Positions 22,738-28,212 of a stretch of DNA of 32,759 bases are shown here, one piece after another; the stretch's first letter is position 1; every line of letters starts with the position of its first letter. The DNA lies in IMG/VR virus record IMGVR_UViG_3300029787_000195, positions 1 through 32,759 of that record; one strand, given 5' to 3'. Both the position numbers and the translations under genes were made by a program. Below the pieces are notes generated by a model that saw nothing but the letters and a program-made list of their open reading frames with translations, did no database searches and had not been told where the DNA came from. Source of the DNA: a virus.

Positions 22738-23036
22738 GCTTTCTCCTGTACACAAAGGGGCTTAGGCAAAGGGCAACGGTGCCACTGTCGGCAACGTATT
22801 ATGCCGCTGGCAGCGGCGCCCCCGGCTGGCGGGGGGTGGGGGGCCGCCGTCAGAAAATGGAGACCCCCCTCCCTAGGTCCGCAACCTGAAGGTCAACCCA
22901 ATGTTATCAATGGCTTAGCCCCTAAGTGGAGCAAGGGTGGAGCATTGCCGATCCCGCCCAGCTTTGGGGGGTCGCGAAAAGGTCAGCCTTGCTGCCATGT
23001 TTCGCGCGTGCTGCTATGCCTACAAAAGATGTGGCG
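22738..23036. other. 299-bp noncoding island after terS, candidate packaging site
   Basis: The only long gap inside the late operon. It contains two adjacent dyads (GCCGCT-GGC-AGCGGC at 22803-22817 and CCCCCG-N5-CGGGGG at 22819-22835), a G-run GGGGGGTGGGGGG (22831-22843), and repeat cluster C. No ORF with a ribosome site is present on the minus strand. A pac or cos site is plausible next to terS, but nothing in the sequence proves it. Confidence 0.45.
22882..22944. repeat. Orphan attP-like cluster C: core-like word plus TGCTCCA pair
   Basis: CAACCTGAAGGTCAA (22882-22896) is identical to 2982-2996. Thirty bp further, TGGAGCA occurs at 22927 and 22938 (reverse complement TGCTCCA), again exactly 11 bp apart. 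The same two words and the same spacing flank attP. On the minus strand the pair reads ATGCTCCA-CCC-TTGCTCCA. Confidence 0.72.
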
Positions 23037-23507
23037 TCAACGTGTTGTTTCGGGATCATTGTCTGTTACGAGTTTAACCACTTCGCCCCTTGGCTTCTCC
23101 TCAACGGGCTCTTCGTCCGCACCCCACATCAGCACAACACTGCCGCCAGTATCCACATCCTCTTTCTTGTGGCGAACGCCGCGCGGTTGCATGCGGGCAA
23201 ATGTCCACTTGAGCGTATCTACCTCGAGCCGCCTACGCTGCACCTCAGCGTTGGCAAACTTGTTGTCCATGTTTTCAGGCAACGGCTGCCTAGCCAGGTC
23301 GTGCATCTCATCGGCAAGCACCTCAGCCCCTATGGCTCTCGCCCGCGAATACATCTCAAAAAGCTCTTCGTCACGCTGCACAGCTTGCAACACTGTTACC
23401 CAATGCGGCATTGCTGCGTCACCATCACAAATGGATCGCAACGACTTGCCTGTAGCCAGCGCATCGCAAATTGGCCGCATCTTTGTTTTCGTTAATTTAC
23501 CAGCCAT
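23037..23507 (-). CDS. terS: Terminase small subunit, 156 aa
   Basis: DNA-recognition subunit of the packaging motor. MAGKLTKTKMRPICDALATG and SLRSICDGDAAMPHWVTVLQ then AVQRDEELFEMYSRARAIGA match Sf6 gp1/terminase-small families: an N-terminal helix-turn-helix (about 5-40), a helical oligomerisation core (AEVLADEMHDLARQPLPENM) and a flexible C-terminus. ATG 23507 is used; the GTG at 23513 lies within the terminator U-run. Only 6 nt separate the T-run of an intrinsic terminator from this start codon and there is no good ribosome site, so expression seems conditional. Confidence 0.9.
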   Translation of the reverse strand: MAGKLTKTKMRPICDALATGKSLRSICDGDAAMPHWVTVLQAVQRDEELFEMYSRARAIGAEVLADEMHDLARQPLPENMDNKFANAEVQRRRLEVDTLKWTFARMQPRGVRHKKEDVDTGGSVVLMWGADEEPVEEKPRGEVVKLVTDNDPETTR

Positions 23508-23513
23508 GCCCAC

Positions 23514-23540
23514 AAAAAAACCGGCCCCAAGAGACCGGCC
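23514..23540 (-). terminator. Intrinsic terminator at the early/late boundary
   Basis: Minus strand CCGGTC (23538-23533) pairs with GGCCGG (23526-23521; one T-G pair) around a 6-nt loop and is followed at once by seven T (23520-23514). It ends 6 nt before the terS start codon. Early transcripts would stop here unless antiterminated. Confidence 0.82.
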
Positions 23541-23579
23541 TTTGTCATATACGAAATTCGCAGTGGCACCGCGCCAAAG

Positions 23580-23596
23580 CGTAATAAAAAATTACG
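23580..23596. promoter_or_regulatory. Operator-like 17-bp dyad at the early/late junction
   Basis: Perfect 6-5-6 inverted repeat CGTAAT-AAAAA-ATTACG overlapping the stop of the 124-aa early gene, 73 bp before terS. Same size and GTAA/TTAC half-sites as the dyad at 30077-30093 (CGTAAG-N5-CTTACG). A TTGACG lies about 30 bp upstream on the minus strand, but no convincing -10 is paired with it. Confidence 0.5.
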
Positions 23597-23966
23597 TTAT
23601 TTCGCGTGTATCGTCAACATCTACCGGGCTTTTTTCTTTTGCGCTAAATCTCAACCTCGGCGCTTTATATGGCTGTGGCCGTTGTATTTCATAATCTTGC
23701 TCACAAGCACTACAGATGAGCCACCAGCGTTTGTCCTTTAAGCAAGCGAGTCCATCCTCAATACCGACAAAAACACAGCACTCCTCACAAGCCCCAGACC
23801 TTTTGTTAGGCATAATAAACTCAAAACCATAGTCAGCACCCCAATCCTGCCAATGCCACTCCCAATCACCGCGATTGACCCGCTCTGGCACCCATTGCCC
23901 ACGCCTGTTGATAGGGTAATCCGGTTCTTCATTAGTTTTTAAAAACTCCTCATACCTTGTTGCCAT
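23592..23966 (-). CDS. Hypothetical protein with Cys-rich zinc-finger-like region, 124 aa
   Basis: Last gene of the early operon. ATG 23966 overlaps the end of the DUF6362-like gene by 17 nt. Acidic/aromatic N-terminal half (MATRYEEFLKTNEEPDYPIN, RGDWEWHWQDWGADYGFEF), then four-Cys pattern CEECC ... CLKDKRWWLICSAC, likely one zinc ribbon, and a basic tail. I do not recognise the family. Its place just before the terminator and terS leaves open a role in the early-to-late switch, for example an antiterminator; this is a guess from position. Confidence 0.68.
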   Translation of the reverse strand: MATRYEEFLKTNEEPDYPINRRGQWVPERVNRGDWEWHWQDWGADYGFEFIMPNKRSGACEECCVFVGIEDGLACLKDKRWWLICSACEQDYEIQRPQPYKAPRLRFSAKEKSPVDVDDTREIT

Positions 23967-24411
23967 CACCGTTACCCTCAGCAAAAAAACCCAACTTATA
24001 CCACAACTCTAACAACGCCCGCTCAAACCGCCGCTTGACCGTTTGCGCATGCAATCCACGCATCCGACCGATCCTCGCCCACTTTGGCCCTCGGTTGCTT
24101 CTCACCGCACTATGCGCGCACGCCCACACCAATCGCGCGTCATCCGCATCCATCGCCTGCGTAATTCTCAAAGCCCAATCGTAATTACGCACCTCAATGC
24201 TATTAGCCGACCCCCACCCCTCTTCCTCCTCATTGTACCCGTAAGCCAGTTGCGGCTCCGGTAACATCTCAGGCCACGCGCACCGCACATCCAATCCCAA
24301 CCCACCGGGCAGCTTCCGCTCCGTAATAGCCGCCTCCATAAACAAACCCGCCAACCCATCCACCCCACCGCAATGCTCAATCACAACTACCGCAATTTGC
24401 TTTTCAATCAT
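23950..24411 (-). CDS. DUF6362-like helix-turn-helix protein, 153 aa
   Basis: The C-terminal half (DARLVWACAHSAVRSNRGPK then WARIGRMRGLHAQTVKRRFE and RALLELWYKLGF) looks like a sigma-region-4-like helix-turn-helix as in the DUF6362 family of alphaproteobacterial prophages. The N-terminal part has an acidic patch (YGYNEEEEGWGS). ATG 24411 has an excellent ribosome site (GGAGGTG) and overlaps the stop of the 82-aa gene (ATGA). Placed before terS, it is the best candidate for a late-gene activator or for a terminase-associated regulator; family naming by eye. Confidence 0.7.
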   Translation of the reverse strand: MIEKQIAVVVIEHCGGVDGLAGLFMEAAITERKLPGGLGLDVRCAWPEMLPEPQLAYGYNEEEEGWGSANSIEVRNYDWALRITQAMDADDARLVWACAHSAVRSNRGPKWARIGRMRGLHAQTVKRRFERALLELWYKLGFFAEGNGDGNKV

Positions 24412-24656
24412 TTCCACCTCCAAGCGGACTCAATCCCATACCGCATACCGCATTCCCTAGGGAAATGCGGTAAATGCGGTAGTTGATGGGCTTTTGCACT
24501 ACCGCAATTGCGGTAGAATGCGGTAGAATGCGGTAGTTCAAAGCCCCAAATTACCCCCTTTTCACCCCCATTTTTTGTGACTCTTACCGAGAATGCGGTA
24601 GTTTGCGGTATTGCAAAAATGTCACACATCGCGTTTTCGCTATTTGTCGTAATCAT
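24408..24656 (-). CDS. 82-aa protein whose gene contains the iteron array
   Basis: ATG 24656 overlaps the stop of the TOPRIM-helicase (ATGA) and its TGA overlaps the ATG of the next gene (ATGA). This double coupling makes a real gene likely even though the product matches nothing I know. It begins MITTNSENAMCDIFAIPQTT; His/Pro/Arg-rich segments (LPHSTAFYRNCGSAKA, QLPHLPHFPRECG) are the read-through of TACCGCA repeats in different frames. So the DNA words rather than the peptide appear to be under selection. The arrangement recalls lambdoid origins, where iterons lie inside the O gene. It may bind its own repeats, or be mere continuity coding through an origin. Confidence 0.6.
   Translation of the reverse strand: MITTNSENAMCDIFAIPQTTAFSVRVTKNGGEKGVIWGFELPHSTAFYRNCGSAKAHQLPHLPHFPRECGMRYGIESAWRWK
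24439..24610. repeat. Iteron-like array, candidate replication origin
   Basis: Ten TACCGCA/TGCGGTA words in 172 bp. TACCGCA at 24439 and 24446; AATGCGGTA at 24464 and 24473 (tandem, 9 bp); palindrome TACCGCAATTGCGGTA at 24500-24515; AATGCGGTA at 24517, 24527 and 24592; TTGCGGTA at 24603. A larger dyad (24446-24472) surrounds CCCTAGGG. A T-rich stretch lies at 24571-24576. Placement next to the primase/helicase gene supports an origin; an autorepressor target is the alternative. Confidence 0.72.
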
Positions 24657-26395
24657 TCCAGCACCCATGCAACGCCATTTTCAAACCCAACAAACTCATC
24701 ACCAACAAGACTGTCGGCAGCCCGCCGAAAGTTTGTCCATTTGTGCTTTGGCTCACCCGTCATGAGTTTAAAGGCTGCCGCGCGCCATAGCTCCTCATCA
24801 ACTACAAAGCTCCGCGCATCTGACACCGCATAACCTGAGTCAACCAACGCATTGCGCAGCGCCTTCATTACTGTTTTTTGCATGGCACCCCGTGGACGTT
24901 TTGGCTTTTTACGCACGGCACCGCCGCCCGCATCCATCACCACGCATGACGACACCTCTTTGCCCCGCGTGTTTACGCCCAACGGGATCACATGCAACGA
25001 GAAGCCAAACGTGCCATCGATCTCAAGATCACGCTGCTTTGTAACCGTAGCCACTGACCCATTGAGTCCACCGGCCACCTCAATCTCTGTGTCTGTGGCG
25101 GCACGCAGCGACGAATGCCCACGCGCACCTCGAGCTTCATCCTTGCCCGTATGGTGTATGAGCATCACATGGGCGCGCGTCTCCGCCCGTATGCGGTCAC
25201 AATTGCCAATCAGCGCGCCCATATCTTCCGACGAGTTCTCATTGCCGCCAGCGATCACACGCGCCAGGGTATCCAGCACAACCATGCTGGCACCCTTGAC
25301 CCTTGCCGTGTTTATCAACCGCTCGACCGCCTCATCATCATTGAGCAAATTGACCGACACCGGAATCACATGAAACGGCACCTTGCCCTCAATCTCATAA
25401 TGAGACCTGAATGCCGCCACACGGTTGCGAATGCCATAGCTCCCCTCAGCCGCCACATACAGCACTGGCCCGGCCTCAACCTCGCGGCCACGCCATTGCC
25501 AGCCAAGCGCCACATGCAGCGCCAAGTCTGCCGCAAAAAAGGTTTTGCCCACATTGCTGGCCCCGTACACAACACTCATGCCACCAGCAATCAGCACGCC
25601 CTCAACAAAGTCATCGGCACTGAGAACCGGCGTGATCTCATCGGCGTCCAGCGTGTTGTAAACAAAACTTGCGTCCAACTCCGCCGCATTAAACTCTGGG
25701 AACGTGCGAACGGCTGCCAGTAAGTCGCCCTTGTCTGCGTCCAACCAATCGGAAACGTCGCTTTTTGCTGGCATGCCGTCGCACACGGGCGCCAGCACCA
25801 CCGACCGGGCTATGCCCTCAAGCGCCGCACACGTTTTCTCGGCACCACGGCGCCCCGCGTCATCGTTGTCCGGTATAACAAACACATCTTTGTCGCGGAA
25901 CCAGCGCAGCGCGCTTGGCTCCCACGATGACTGCGCGCCACCGCTTTTTGTTGTGGCAACCAGCCCCACATCAGAAAGGCGATCCACATCCTTTTCGCCT
26001 TCAACCACAATGACATAATCACTTGCTAACATGGCGGGCAGCCGGTACGGCAATCGCTCAATCCCATCCATGCAACCTTTGCCACGCCGCCATTGACCGT
26101 CAACCCAGGCGCGCGGCTCAAAAAACTTGGGCATATAGCGCATTACCTCGTAACGCACCTCGCCATGCTCATCGCAATATGTGTATCTGTTCACCACCAT
26201 GCGCGCGACGTTGGGCGCCAGTTCTACCTTTGCATTCTCAAAGTGGCCGCCTTTCCACTCCTCAAAGTCAAACCACTCACCGGTTTCAAGGTTGACCGAC
26301 TTGCTGCCCTGGCGCCCAAAGCGCATCTCAACGCCAGACGACAGCGCCACATTTGGCTCGCCAAACAACTCACGGGCTTGGGCTTCGATTGTCAT
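24653..26395 (-). CDS. TOPRIM - RecA-like helicase replication protein, 580 aa
   Basis: Probable primase-helicase. Residues about 120-200 carry a TOPRIM domain: VIVVEGEKDVDRLSDVG (Glu motif) and VFVIPDNDDAGRRGAEKT (DxD). A RepA/AAA_25-type ATPase follows: Walker A GASNVGKTFFAADLAL (about 280), Walker B MVVLDTLARVIAG, then AHVMLIHHTGKDEARGARG. The C-terminal 80 residues (RPRGAMQKTVMKALRNALVD) resemble a winged-helix DNA-binding end. An N-terminal zinc motif is absent, so priming activity is uncertain. It overlaps both neighbours by 4 bp and directly precedes the iteron array. Confidence 0.88.
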   Translation of the reverse strand: MTIEAQARELFGEPNVALSSGVEMRFGRQGSKSVNLETGEWFDFEEWKGGHFENAKVELAPNVARMVVNRYTYCDEHGEVRYEVMRYMPKFFEPRAWVDGQWRRGKGCMDGIERLPYRLPAMLASDYVIVVEGEKDVDRLSDVGLVATTKSGGAQSSWEPSALRWFRDKDVFVIPDNDDAGRRGAEKTCAALEGIARSVVLAPVCDGMPAKSDVSDWLDADKGDLLAAVRTFPEFNAAELDASFVYNTLDADEITPVLSADDFVEGVLIAGGMSVVYGASNVGKTFFAADLALHVALGWQWRGREVEAGPVLYVAAEGSYGIRNRVAAFRSHYEIEGKVPFHVIPVSVNLLNDDEAVERLINTARVKGASMVVLDTLARVIAGGNENSSEDMGALIGNCDRIRAETRAHVMLIHHTGKDEARGARGHSSLRAATDTEIEVAGGLNGSVATVTKQRDLEIDGTFGFSLHVIPLGVNTRGKEVSSCVVMDAGGGAVRKKPKRPRGAMQKTVMKALRNALVDSGYAVSDARSFVVDEELWRAAAFKLMTGEPKHKWTNFRRAADSLVGDEFVGFENGVAWVLE

Positions 26396-26775
26396 TTCAG
26401 CGGCGGCAATCCAAACGGGTCTTCCATACTTTGCTCAAACTCCGCTTCGATCTTGCGGTCAAAGTCTGGCCGCACTTCATGCAGCCGCCCGACAATGGCT
26501 TGTAAAAACGTAAGCCACTCCTCCTTGCTCATCGCAGCCAAGTCCGACTTGCCCAAGCTGTCCAAGTATTCACCGCCCGCACTGCCGCATTGCAGGAGCA
26601 TTTCATTTTCTAAAGGCAACCAATCCGTCATGTTATGTGTCTCCCAATAATCACGGCAACGCCGTGAGCAAAACCAAACATCGTCACCAACGCGCCCAAT
26701 GAGCCGCCTGCTAAACCCCCAACCACGGGTGCGCCGAAAGCACACCGGGCAAAGCCGCGCGCTACTCGGGGTCAA
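26392..26775 (-). CDS. Zinc-finger protein, DUF6511-like, about 127 aa
   Basis: LCPVCFRRTRGWGFSRRLIG and RVGDDVWFCSRRCRDYWE give a CxxC...CxxxC zinc site and a phrase I associate with DUF6511-like proteins of alphaproteobacterial phages; the rest is acidic and helical (NEMLLQCG through FDRKIEAEFEQSMED). No ATG is available: the longest frame opens with TTG at 26826, deep inside the neighbour. I choose TTG 26775, so the start is uncertain. It ends overlapping the helicase ATG (ATGA) and may be a helicase partner. Confidence 0.62.
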   Translation of the reverse strand: MTPSSARLCPVCFRRTRGWGFSRRLIGRVGDDVWFCSRRCRDYWETHNMTDWLPLENEMLLQCGSAGGEYLDSLGKSDLAAMSKEEWLTFLQAIVGRLHEVRPDFDRKIEAEFEQSMEDPFGLPPLK

Positions 26776-27049
26776 TGTCCCGCAGCAAAACTTTTGTGAC
26801 CTCGCCGTAATTGTAAAAATTATCAAGCCGGTCAGCGAGTTCCGCCTTTACCTTTTCTGTGTCCAAACGCTTTTGCGGGTCGGTTTTTACCTCGGCCTCA
26901 ACAAAGGCGCCGCGTACTAGTCCACCAATGCTTTTGATTTCAGCCGCAATCTCTTTCTCACGCGCCTTCAAAACTTTTATTTTGTCCCGCACCTCGTCCA
27001 ACTGATCGGGCAGCGGCAAGTTTGTGCCCTTTGATTCCTCAAAAATCAT
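26762..27049 (-). CDS. Coiled-coil phage protein, 95 aa
   Basis: Two-part structure: an N-terminal coiled coil (LDEVRDKIKVLKAREKEIAA EIKSI in two blocks) and a C-terminal part beginning AFVEAEVKTDPQKRLDTEKV with FYNYGEVTKVLLRD. This pattern recurs in small proteins beside exonuclease and recombination genes of temperate phages, function unknown. ATG 27049 has GGAGGTG upstream. The start overlaps the XRE gene stop by 11 nt. Confidence 0.75.
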   Translation of the reverse strand: MIFEESKGTNLPLPDQLDEVRDKIKVLKAREKEIAAEIKSIGGLVRGAFVEAEVKTDPQKRLDTEKVKAELADRLDNFYNYGEVTKVLLRDIDPE

Positions 27050-27266
27050 ATTCCACCTCCTTTATGACTAACTCACACCCAAGCTCCCGCAGCACGACCT
27101 CCAAAGTATCGACCGCAGGCATGCAATTGCCGTGTTCAATGTTGAGAATTGTGCCCTCAGCCACGCCGCTCCTCTCAGCTAACTCACGCCGAGACCAACG
27201 CTTTTGCGACCGCCGTTGCCACACCCCCTTACTCACCCAACTGCCACGCTGTACTTTACGCGCCAT
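27039..27266 (-). CDS. XRE-family helix-turn-helix protein, 75 aa
   Basis: RWSRRELAERSGVAEGTILN followed by IEHGNCMPAVDTLEVVLREL is a canonical Cro/CI-type helix-turn-helix (about residues 24-65), preceded by a basic N-terminus (MARKVQRGSWVSKGVWQRRS). ATG 27266 lies in the upstream gene's last codons (ATGGCGCGTAA). It is expressed mid-operon, well away from the switch region, and may tune early transcription or act on host promoters. No cofactor domain. Confidence 0.85.
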   Translation of the reverse strand: MARKVQRGSWVSKGVWQRRSQKRWSRRELAERSGVAEGTILNIEHGNCMPAVDTLEVVLRELGCELVIKEVEYDF

Positions 27267-28212
27267 TGTCCACCCACTCCTCATCACCATGCCGGTAGCT
27301 CACGGTATTGGTGGCGTCATCCACGCCCACTACCTCACCCGTCACAAAAGCCGGTCGATAGCGTTGCTGCTCACAACCTGCTTGCTGTTCTGAAAAGCTC
27401 AAAAGCCTATCGTAAAAACGACACCGCCACGCGCCATCATCGACCGGCTCACTCCACACACACGTGCGGCAATTGCGTACCGGCGCGGCGCCCATATGGC
27501 ACACCTCGCGGAACTCGCAGAAGCGGCAAAGCCAATAGTCACGATTTTCGCTGATGCGGTCGGGCAGTCGGTCCCGCTCAAAAATAATTTGGCGCGCCCG
27601 CTCTACATAAAACTCGGCAGCCTCACGGCTAAACTCTGTGCGGCAGCTTGCCCACCGTCGACCGCCTGCACTCGCGACCACCATGTAGCCGCGCGTCCGC
27701 CCTCTGTAGAGCATATAAATTTGATGCTGCGCATAATACATTTCATTCCACTGGCGCAGCGTCGATTTTTCGCCAACCTTGGCCTTGAGCTTTAAAAACT
27801 CAGCAAACTTTTTGTCGCCTGTGCATTTAATCTCAAGCACATGGGGCGTTTTTGGTGCTTGATACAGCCCAAAAACCTCGCCATCTAAATGCCCAAGAAA
27901 ATGTCCCTTGTGATCGCTCACCTCGATCTGGCGCCCTGTGTCGGGATCGCGGTCGATCACCGTGACGCCCTGCGCCATACGCAACCGCTCAACAATCAAA
28001 TCCTCAGTGCGGTGGCCATCGGCAAACATTTTTAGCGTGTTTGCATTAAAAGGCTCGCCGCCAACAATCGAGTGCCGGTACGCCGCTTTGCGCGGGCAGT
28101 CACCAATGTATGAGACACCCAAATATTGCCGCGCTTCCCGCGCGTTTTCCCTTTCCTCAAGCGCCTTGTCAGCGGCCTCAAGCGTCGGGTCTGTAACTGT
28201 TAAATCAACCAT
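27256..28212 (-). CDS. Cas4/RecB-like PD-(D/E)XK nuclease with Fe-S-type cysteines, 318 aa
   Basis: Probable recombination exonuclease. VSYIGDCPRKAAYRHS gives the first Cys of a Cas4/AddB-like cluster and the C-terminal WLCRFCEFREVC the other three. Between them lie the nuclease motifs: a His region (ADGHRTEDLIVERL), HLDGEVFG (Asp) and HVLEIKCTGDKKF (E-x-K), with QWNEMYYAQHQIYML as the RecB-type QhxxY motif. A second Cys set (NCRTCVWSEPVDDGAWRC) follows. ATG 28212 has a near-perfect AGGAGGG, placed right after the U-run of a terminator. With the Sak4-like and SSB genes it forms a phage recombination module. Confidence 0.85.
   Translation of the reverse strand: MVDLTVTDPTLEAADKALEERENAREARQYLGVSYIGDCPRKAAYRHSIVGGEPFNANTLKMFADGHRTEDLIVERLRMAQGVTVIDRDPDTGRQIEVSDHKGHFLGHLDGEVFGLYQAPKTPHVLEIKCTGDKKFAEFLKLKAKVGEKSTLRQWNEMYYAQHQIYMLYRGRTRGYMVVASAGGRRWASCRTEFSREAAEFYVERARQIIFERDRLPDRISENRDYWLCRFCEFREVCHMGAAPVRNCRTCVWSEPVDDGAWRCRFYDRLLSFSEQQAGCEQQRYRPAFVTGEVVGVDDATNTVSYRHGDEEWVDNGA

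Follow-up and report, generated by a model that had tools for sequence, protein, structure and literature searches.

Replication initiators that are linked to their own cognate iterons are already known. The O protein of phage lambda is not a helicase and recruits one, while RSF1010 RepA does not read iterons, this being done by the separate protein RepC. Helicases resembling T7 gp4 and Twinkle form a class that, to our knowledge, is not usually credited with origin recognition. In lambda, the iterons bound by O are located inside the O gene (PMC7466680). T7 gp4 and Twinkle have been reviewed as loading without specialised loaders, and the accessible part of that review describes neither an adjacent iteron array nor an origin-reading tail for them; it also reports that SV40 T antigen assembles head to head on pentanucleotides (PMC3401641). 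Self-loading initiator helicases are exemplified by SaPI Rep and SCCmec Cch2, whose C-terminal domain recognises short repeats directly downstream of their own gene; the accessible part of their description assigns them to the DUF927 or D5/Primase_Cterm helicases, accompanied by AEP primases (PMC7581432).

Here we describe an iteron array that adjoins the gene of a TOPRIM and AAA_25 primase-helicase in a 32,759-bp virus record from IMG/VR (the window, i.e. the whole stretch of DNA analysed; Table 1). Comparison with related loci makes it very probable that this array is the replication origin of the phage and that its reader is the winged-helix tail of the adjoining helicase. The gene content of the window is that of a temperate-type phage and includes a CI-like S24 repressor and a Cro-like gene, a Sak4-like annealing protein, a Cas4-like nuclease, the primase-helicase, a DUF6362 protein (Pfam) and a terminase. 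Pfam gives only AAA_25 in the helicase (2.1e-42), with no D5/DUF927 (SF3-type) domain, and TOPRIM motifs were seen in the sequence. By profile, the protein belongs to the same family as RSF1010 RepA (PDB 1G8Y, E=1.9e-11), the match being limited to the helicase core; its closest overall folds in a fold search are T7 gp4 and Twinkle. As in the systems of Rep and Cch2, the array lies 3' of the helicase gene, and both this layout and the covariation described below would agree with a C-terminal reader; the helicase itself differs from theirs, as portrayed in the accessible text of PMC7581432, in being a RecA-fold (RepA/gp4/Twinkle-like) AAA_25 enzyme joined to TOPRIM. The best reading by analogy is that the window helicase may work like Rep and Cch2 while belonging to a different helicase superfamily.

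Table 1. Features of the array and its surroundings in the window
Feature	Position	Strand	Basis or remark
DUF6362 gene, after array	23950..24411	-	Pfam; judged not to be the word reader
Iteron array, 11 exact TACCGCA/TGCGGTA words	24388..24610		Word scan
82-aa ORF around array	24408..24656	-	Judged not to be a real gene
Central dyad, TTCCCTAGGGAAA palindrome between two words and two inverted words	24439..24481		CTWWAG-type arrangement
Perfect 18-bp palindrome CTACCGCAATTGCGGTAG, two words head to head	24499..24516		Palindrome search
Three tandem words, 10-bp period (TGCGGTAGAA)	24509..24535	-	Word scan
TOPRIM + AAA_25 primase-helicase, proposed initiator	24653..26395	-	Pfam, profile, fold
Helicase C-terminal tail, residues 491-580, proposed iteron reader	24656..24925	-	AlphaFold, fold search, covariation
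Predicted recognition helix (helix 3), residues 549-565, PKHKWTNFRRAADSLVG	24701..24751	-	AlphaFold, word-linked divergence

The exact words of the array span 223 bp. Ten of them, in 172 bp and in both orientations, had been listed in the original prediction and were found again at 24439-24610; an eleventh lies beyond them at 24388-24394. The perfect 16-bp palindrome named there (TACCGCAATTGCGGTA) is likewise present and extends to 18 bp, whereas the tandem units, given as 9 bp, have a period of 10 bp. Several copies are 7-10 bp apart, and the array combines what is expected of an iteron origin: several copies of a short word, regular spacing and proximity to the gene of a proposed initiator. 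The whole window contains 15 matches to the word or its complement where 3.75 are expected, a number reached by none of 100 dinucleotide shuffles. The array matches no Rfam family and no tRNA, and an RNA or tRNA element was rejected as a candidate. In the direction of the helicase gene, the first word is directly preceded by a T-rich stretch, GTGTGACATTTTTGCAAT (24611-24640), which is nearly the same in the relative L242 and similar in L254, and which may serve as an unwinding element or as a promoter. GC skew proved uninformative on the position of an origin, both in the window, where gene strand dominates the profile, and near the arrays of the Roseobacter phages CRP-811 and CRP-831, where the extrema lie elsewhere. 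Over the replication genes of the window (23001-27500) the skew is strongly negative, about -0.2 to -0.37, and more pronounced than over the other minus-strand genes.

The array had been proposed to lie inside a coupled 82-aa gene, in a layout recalling lambda O. The ATGA overlaps of this ORF with both neighbours do exist, and the words, noted as falling in different reading frames, occupy all three frames of the minus-strand ORF. The product, however, has no Pfam and no PHROG match, and in five relatives that carry an array (L003, L242, L254, L252 and L246) the corresponding stretch has stops and no equivalent ORF. Elsewhere (L004, L005/L006 and L243), the helicase is separated by other DNA from its array, which is found 0.5 to 2.3 kb further on. 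Sequence comparison thus suggests that the ORF is probably a chance reading frame rather than a gene. The comparison of relatives that had been proposed as a check shows the iterons kept while the peptide diverges; since the repeats persist where the peptide is lost, the array appears to be constrained as DNA, and the idea of a candidate iteron origin is supported. Of the two binders suggested, the helicase is favoured by the covariation of its tail with the word, and the 82-aa product is disfavoured by its lack of conservation. The likeness to lambda O survives in its logic, an initiator gene linked to its iterons, and fails in its layout, because the array follows the helicase gene instead of lying inside an initiator gene. 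A non-helicase initiator with iterons inside its own gene was not found at this locus: the 82-aa ORF is not conserved, the word tracks the helicase tail, and it is the helicase that would carry the reader.

Relatives were gathered through the helicase from IMG/VR, GTDB genomes and phage records, giving 247 distinct loci. Arrays were scored by the most over-represented 7-mer (as -log10 P) in a stretch running from 250 bp upstream to 650 bp downstream of the stop codon of the helicase. Scores of at least 7 were reached at 147 of the 247 loci, versus 2 of 246 equal stretches just upstream. By the threshold, 85 of the 247 relatives have no array; some of these calls are wrong (L003 was missed by the exact-word test, and the arrays of L004 and L243 lie further away), and others may truly be without one. 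About 70 distinct 7-mer words were called, for example CTACAAA, GTATAAA, CGTAACA and CGGGACA, and their direct copies are mostly 9 or 10 bp apart. Judged by this comparison, arrays keep their place and layout while their word varies. Such a large set of words with matched tails is a further difference from Rep and Cch2, none being reported in the accessible part of PMC7581432. Some arrays depart from this layout: L164, for instance, has 14 CCGGACA in a row, all in the same direction, without the usual alternating orientations.

Arrays are present in the Roseobacter phages CRP-811, 821, 823 and 831, in the Rhizobium phages 16-3, RHph_X2_25 and RHph_Y3_1, and in Alteromonas phage XX1924. In CRP-811, all 11 genomic copies of CTACAAA fall within the array, as do 10 of the 11 copies of GTATAAA in CRP-831. 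An extension to all AAA_25 phage helicases was rejected, since arrays are missing from BFK20, Caulobacter GB2A, Vibrio 1.210.O and ctyzp037. A search of plasmids for the helicase returned only partial relatives, with less than 60% identity. The 16-3 protein has a Prim-Pol front part where the window protein has TOPRIM, so that the common part is helicase, tail and array. Phages 16-3 and RHph_X2_25 carry 13-14 copies of GCGTGACA in the gap after the helicase, together with a CTTTAG-centred palindrome (L318:3039-3396, L319:3072-3508). The array of 16-3, a classic laboratory phage, is a candidate origin by its sequence, and no description of it as such was found in the literature.

A palindrome centred on CTWWAG occurs in 33 of 67 distinct-word arrays and in none of the 67 members of either of two control sets; other palindromes of equal make-up are rare in the arrays. 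It is often flanked, a few bases off, by words pointing in opposite directions. The array of the window contains a shortened form, CCCTAGGG.

The evidence bearing on the reader comes from close relatives. Among pairs of loci with 97-100% identical helicase cores, tail identity is 94.6% for those sharing a word (n=74) and 71.1% for those with different words (n=25). For pairs with a core score above 0.85, the tail predicts a shared word with an AUC of 0.976, versus 0.697 for the core; over the whole dataset the tail has only a slight edge (0.89 versus 0.87), as expected if both share ancestry, and the contrast is one seen among close relatives. In Mantel tests on six clusters with cores at least 92% identical, array-word similarity correlates with the tail (C-terminal 90 residues; r=0.78, p=0.0005), whereas the core (r=-0.02) and the N-terminal 150 residues (r=0.02) show no such correlation. 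At the DNA level, the correlation with the word is 0.74 for the tail, -0.05 for the core and 0.22 for the segment behind the array (p=0.034). The clusters consist of related sequences, and by our count represent some six to eight independent word changes. Exact 7-mer calling misfires on mixed arrays (L129 and L130 were called different although their arrays are nearly identical), and such miscalls work against the reported correlation, not for it. Comparison within this collection thus indicates that changes of the word accompany changes in the helicase tail but not changes elsewhere in the protein.

Sliding DNA identity illustrates the pattern. Between the window and L003 it stays at or above about 90% until 350 bp ahead of the helicase stop codon, drops to 58-72% within the tail and to 22-39% within the array, and exceeds 90% again by about +350. 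The same dip at tail and array separates L083 from L084 (CTACAAA and GTATAAA), and is lacking between L083 and L085, which share CTACAAA. Part of the covariation may reflect joint recombination, since tail and array are neighbours and the downstream segment is also weakly correlated. Taken further, this would mean that the word is read by something else, be it a host factor, a small HTH protein, DUF6362 or the 82-aa peptide, and that the tail just hitchhikes on recombination tracts, as its position next to the array and the identity dip spanning both would allow. We regard this as very unlikely: conservation is lacking for the 82-aa ORF, DUF6362 shows 88.9% identity between the window and L003 despite their different words and was found only near window-like and L020-like arrays, the helicase is the sole gene common to all arrays examined (these having been found through the helicase), and the tail changes cluster in one predicted helix. 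The same tracking of the tail by the word speaks against a packaging (pac/cos) or partition site. Repeats with palindromes mark such sites too, and the gene of the terminase large subunit lies about 3 kb from the array in the window; however, relatives, collected by their helicase, have the array beside the helicase gene, and in CRP-811 and CRP-831 the terminase genes are several kb off, across the record ends, which makes a packaging or partition role extremely improbable.

The helicase tail is predicted by AlphaFold to form a winged helix (residues 504-580), both in the whole protein and alone, with pLDDT mostly above 90 and the topology helix-strand-helix-helix-strand-strand. A fold search with the tail returned many winged-helix matches (Z up to 9.3), the best of which include the winged helices of Orc1/Cdc6 and CRP. 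The winged helix is a common fold and likeness to it is in itself no proof of function; the model makes the tail a plausible iteron reader. Word-linked changes peak in helix 3 (e.g. positions 550, 554, 557, 561, 562 and 564-565), where divergence among close relatives is 0.48 for different-word and 0.06 for same-word pairs, and the variable positions lie mostly on one side of the helix. The window, L006 and L242 have in common the word TACCGCA and the helix HKWT(N/A)FRRAAD, although L006 and L242 are only 73% and 68% identical to the window protein, whereas L003, with 92% identity, has the word [CA]ACCGCA and the helix HKSTAFRRAAD.

A tail that binds the array might also do so as a repressor: the array would then be an operator through which the helicase represses, or sets the timing of, transcription of its own operon and of the genes that follow, replication starting elsewhere. 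The array does sit within an operon, between the helicase and downstream genes, and winged helices of the CRP type are common in transcription factors. Nevertheless, at least ten phased words in both orientations around a central palindrome are origin-like and exceed the needs of an operator, the proposed reader belongs to the replicative helicases, and SaPI Rep origins, in the accessible part of PMC7581432, are laid out in the same way; we consider the operator quite unlikely.

We favour an origin read by the tail, at which initiation might proceed as follows. Helicase subunits would bind the words through their tails, and the word pairs of opposite orientation flanking the central palindrome would set two helicase assemblies head to head. 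The rings would load at the palindrome without a separate loader and then unwind the DNA, and the fused primase part would begin synthesis. Related phages would exchange tail and array, or evolve them anew, as a single cassette of specificity. A wider proposition, about as likely as not, is that RecA-fold phage primase-helicases are self-loading initiators of a large class, in which a hypervariable winged helix and its cognate array can be swapped as one unit around a CTWWAG start element that hardly varies. Divergence of the word would then prevent co-resident related phages or satellites from sharing replication machinery, and the natural tail-word pairs would constitute a readable recognition code.

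In the literature searched, mostly outside subscription journals, we found no report of arrays beside this AAA_25 helicase family, of an origin-reading tail on it, of a word repertoire of this size, of the exchange of a tail and array cassette or of the CTWWAG element; a paper on CRP-822-type roseophages (PMC12629253) and the AP-16-3 paper do not mention iterons. If correct, our reading would predict an origin, and what reads it, across a broad range of phages and prophages that have none named in the literature found, among them these roseophages and the relatives of Rhizobium phage 16-3; it would also tie the recognition of an origin to a gp4/Twinkle-like helicase. Many helicases are nearly identical to one another but differ in tail and word, and these are natural swaps with which the recognition code and the evolution of specificity could be tested, as could replication incompatibility between isolated, cultured phages.

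The gap that separates helicase from array has the look of a hot spot for insertions. In L004 (5725-7051) two genes are inserted there, the second with an iron-sulfur match (Fer4_12), and both resemble, by eye only, 7-deazaguanine (DpdA/QueE-type) modification genes; the gap of L006 holds an ORF that appears, also by eye, methyltransferase-like.
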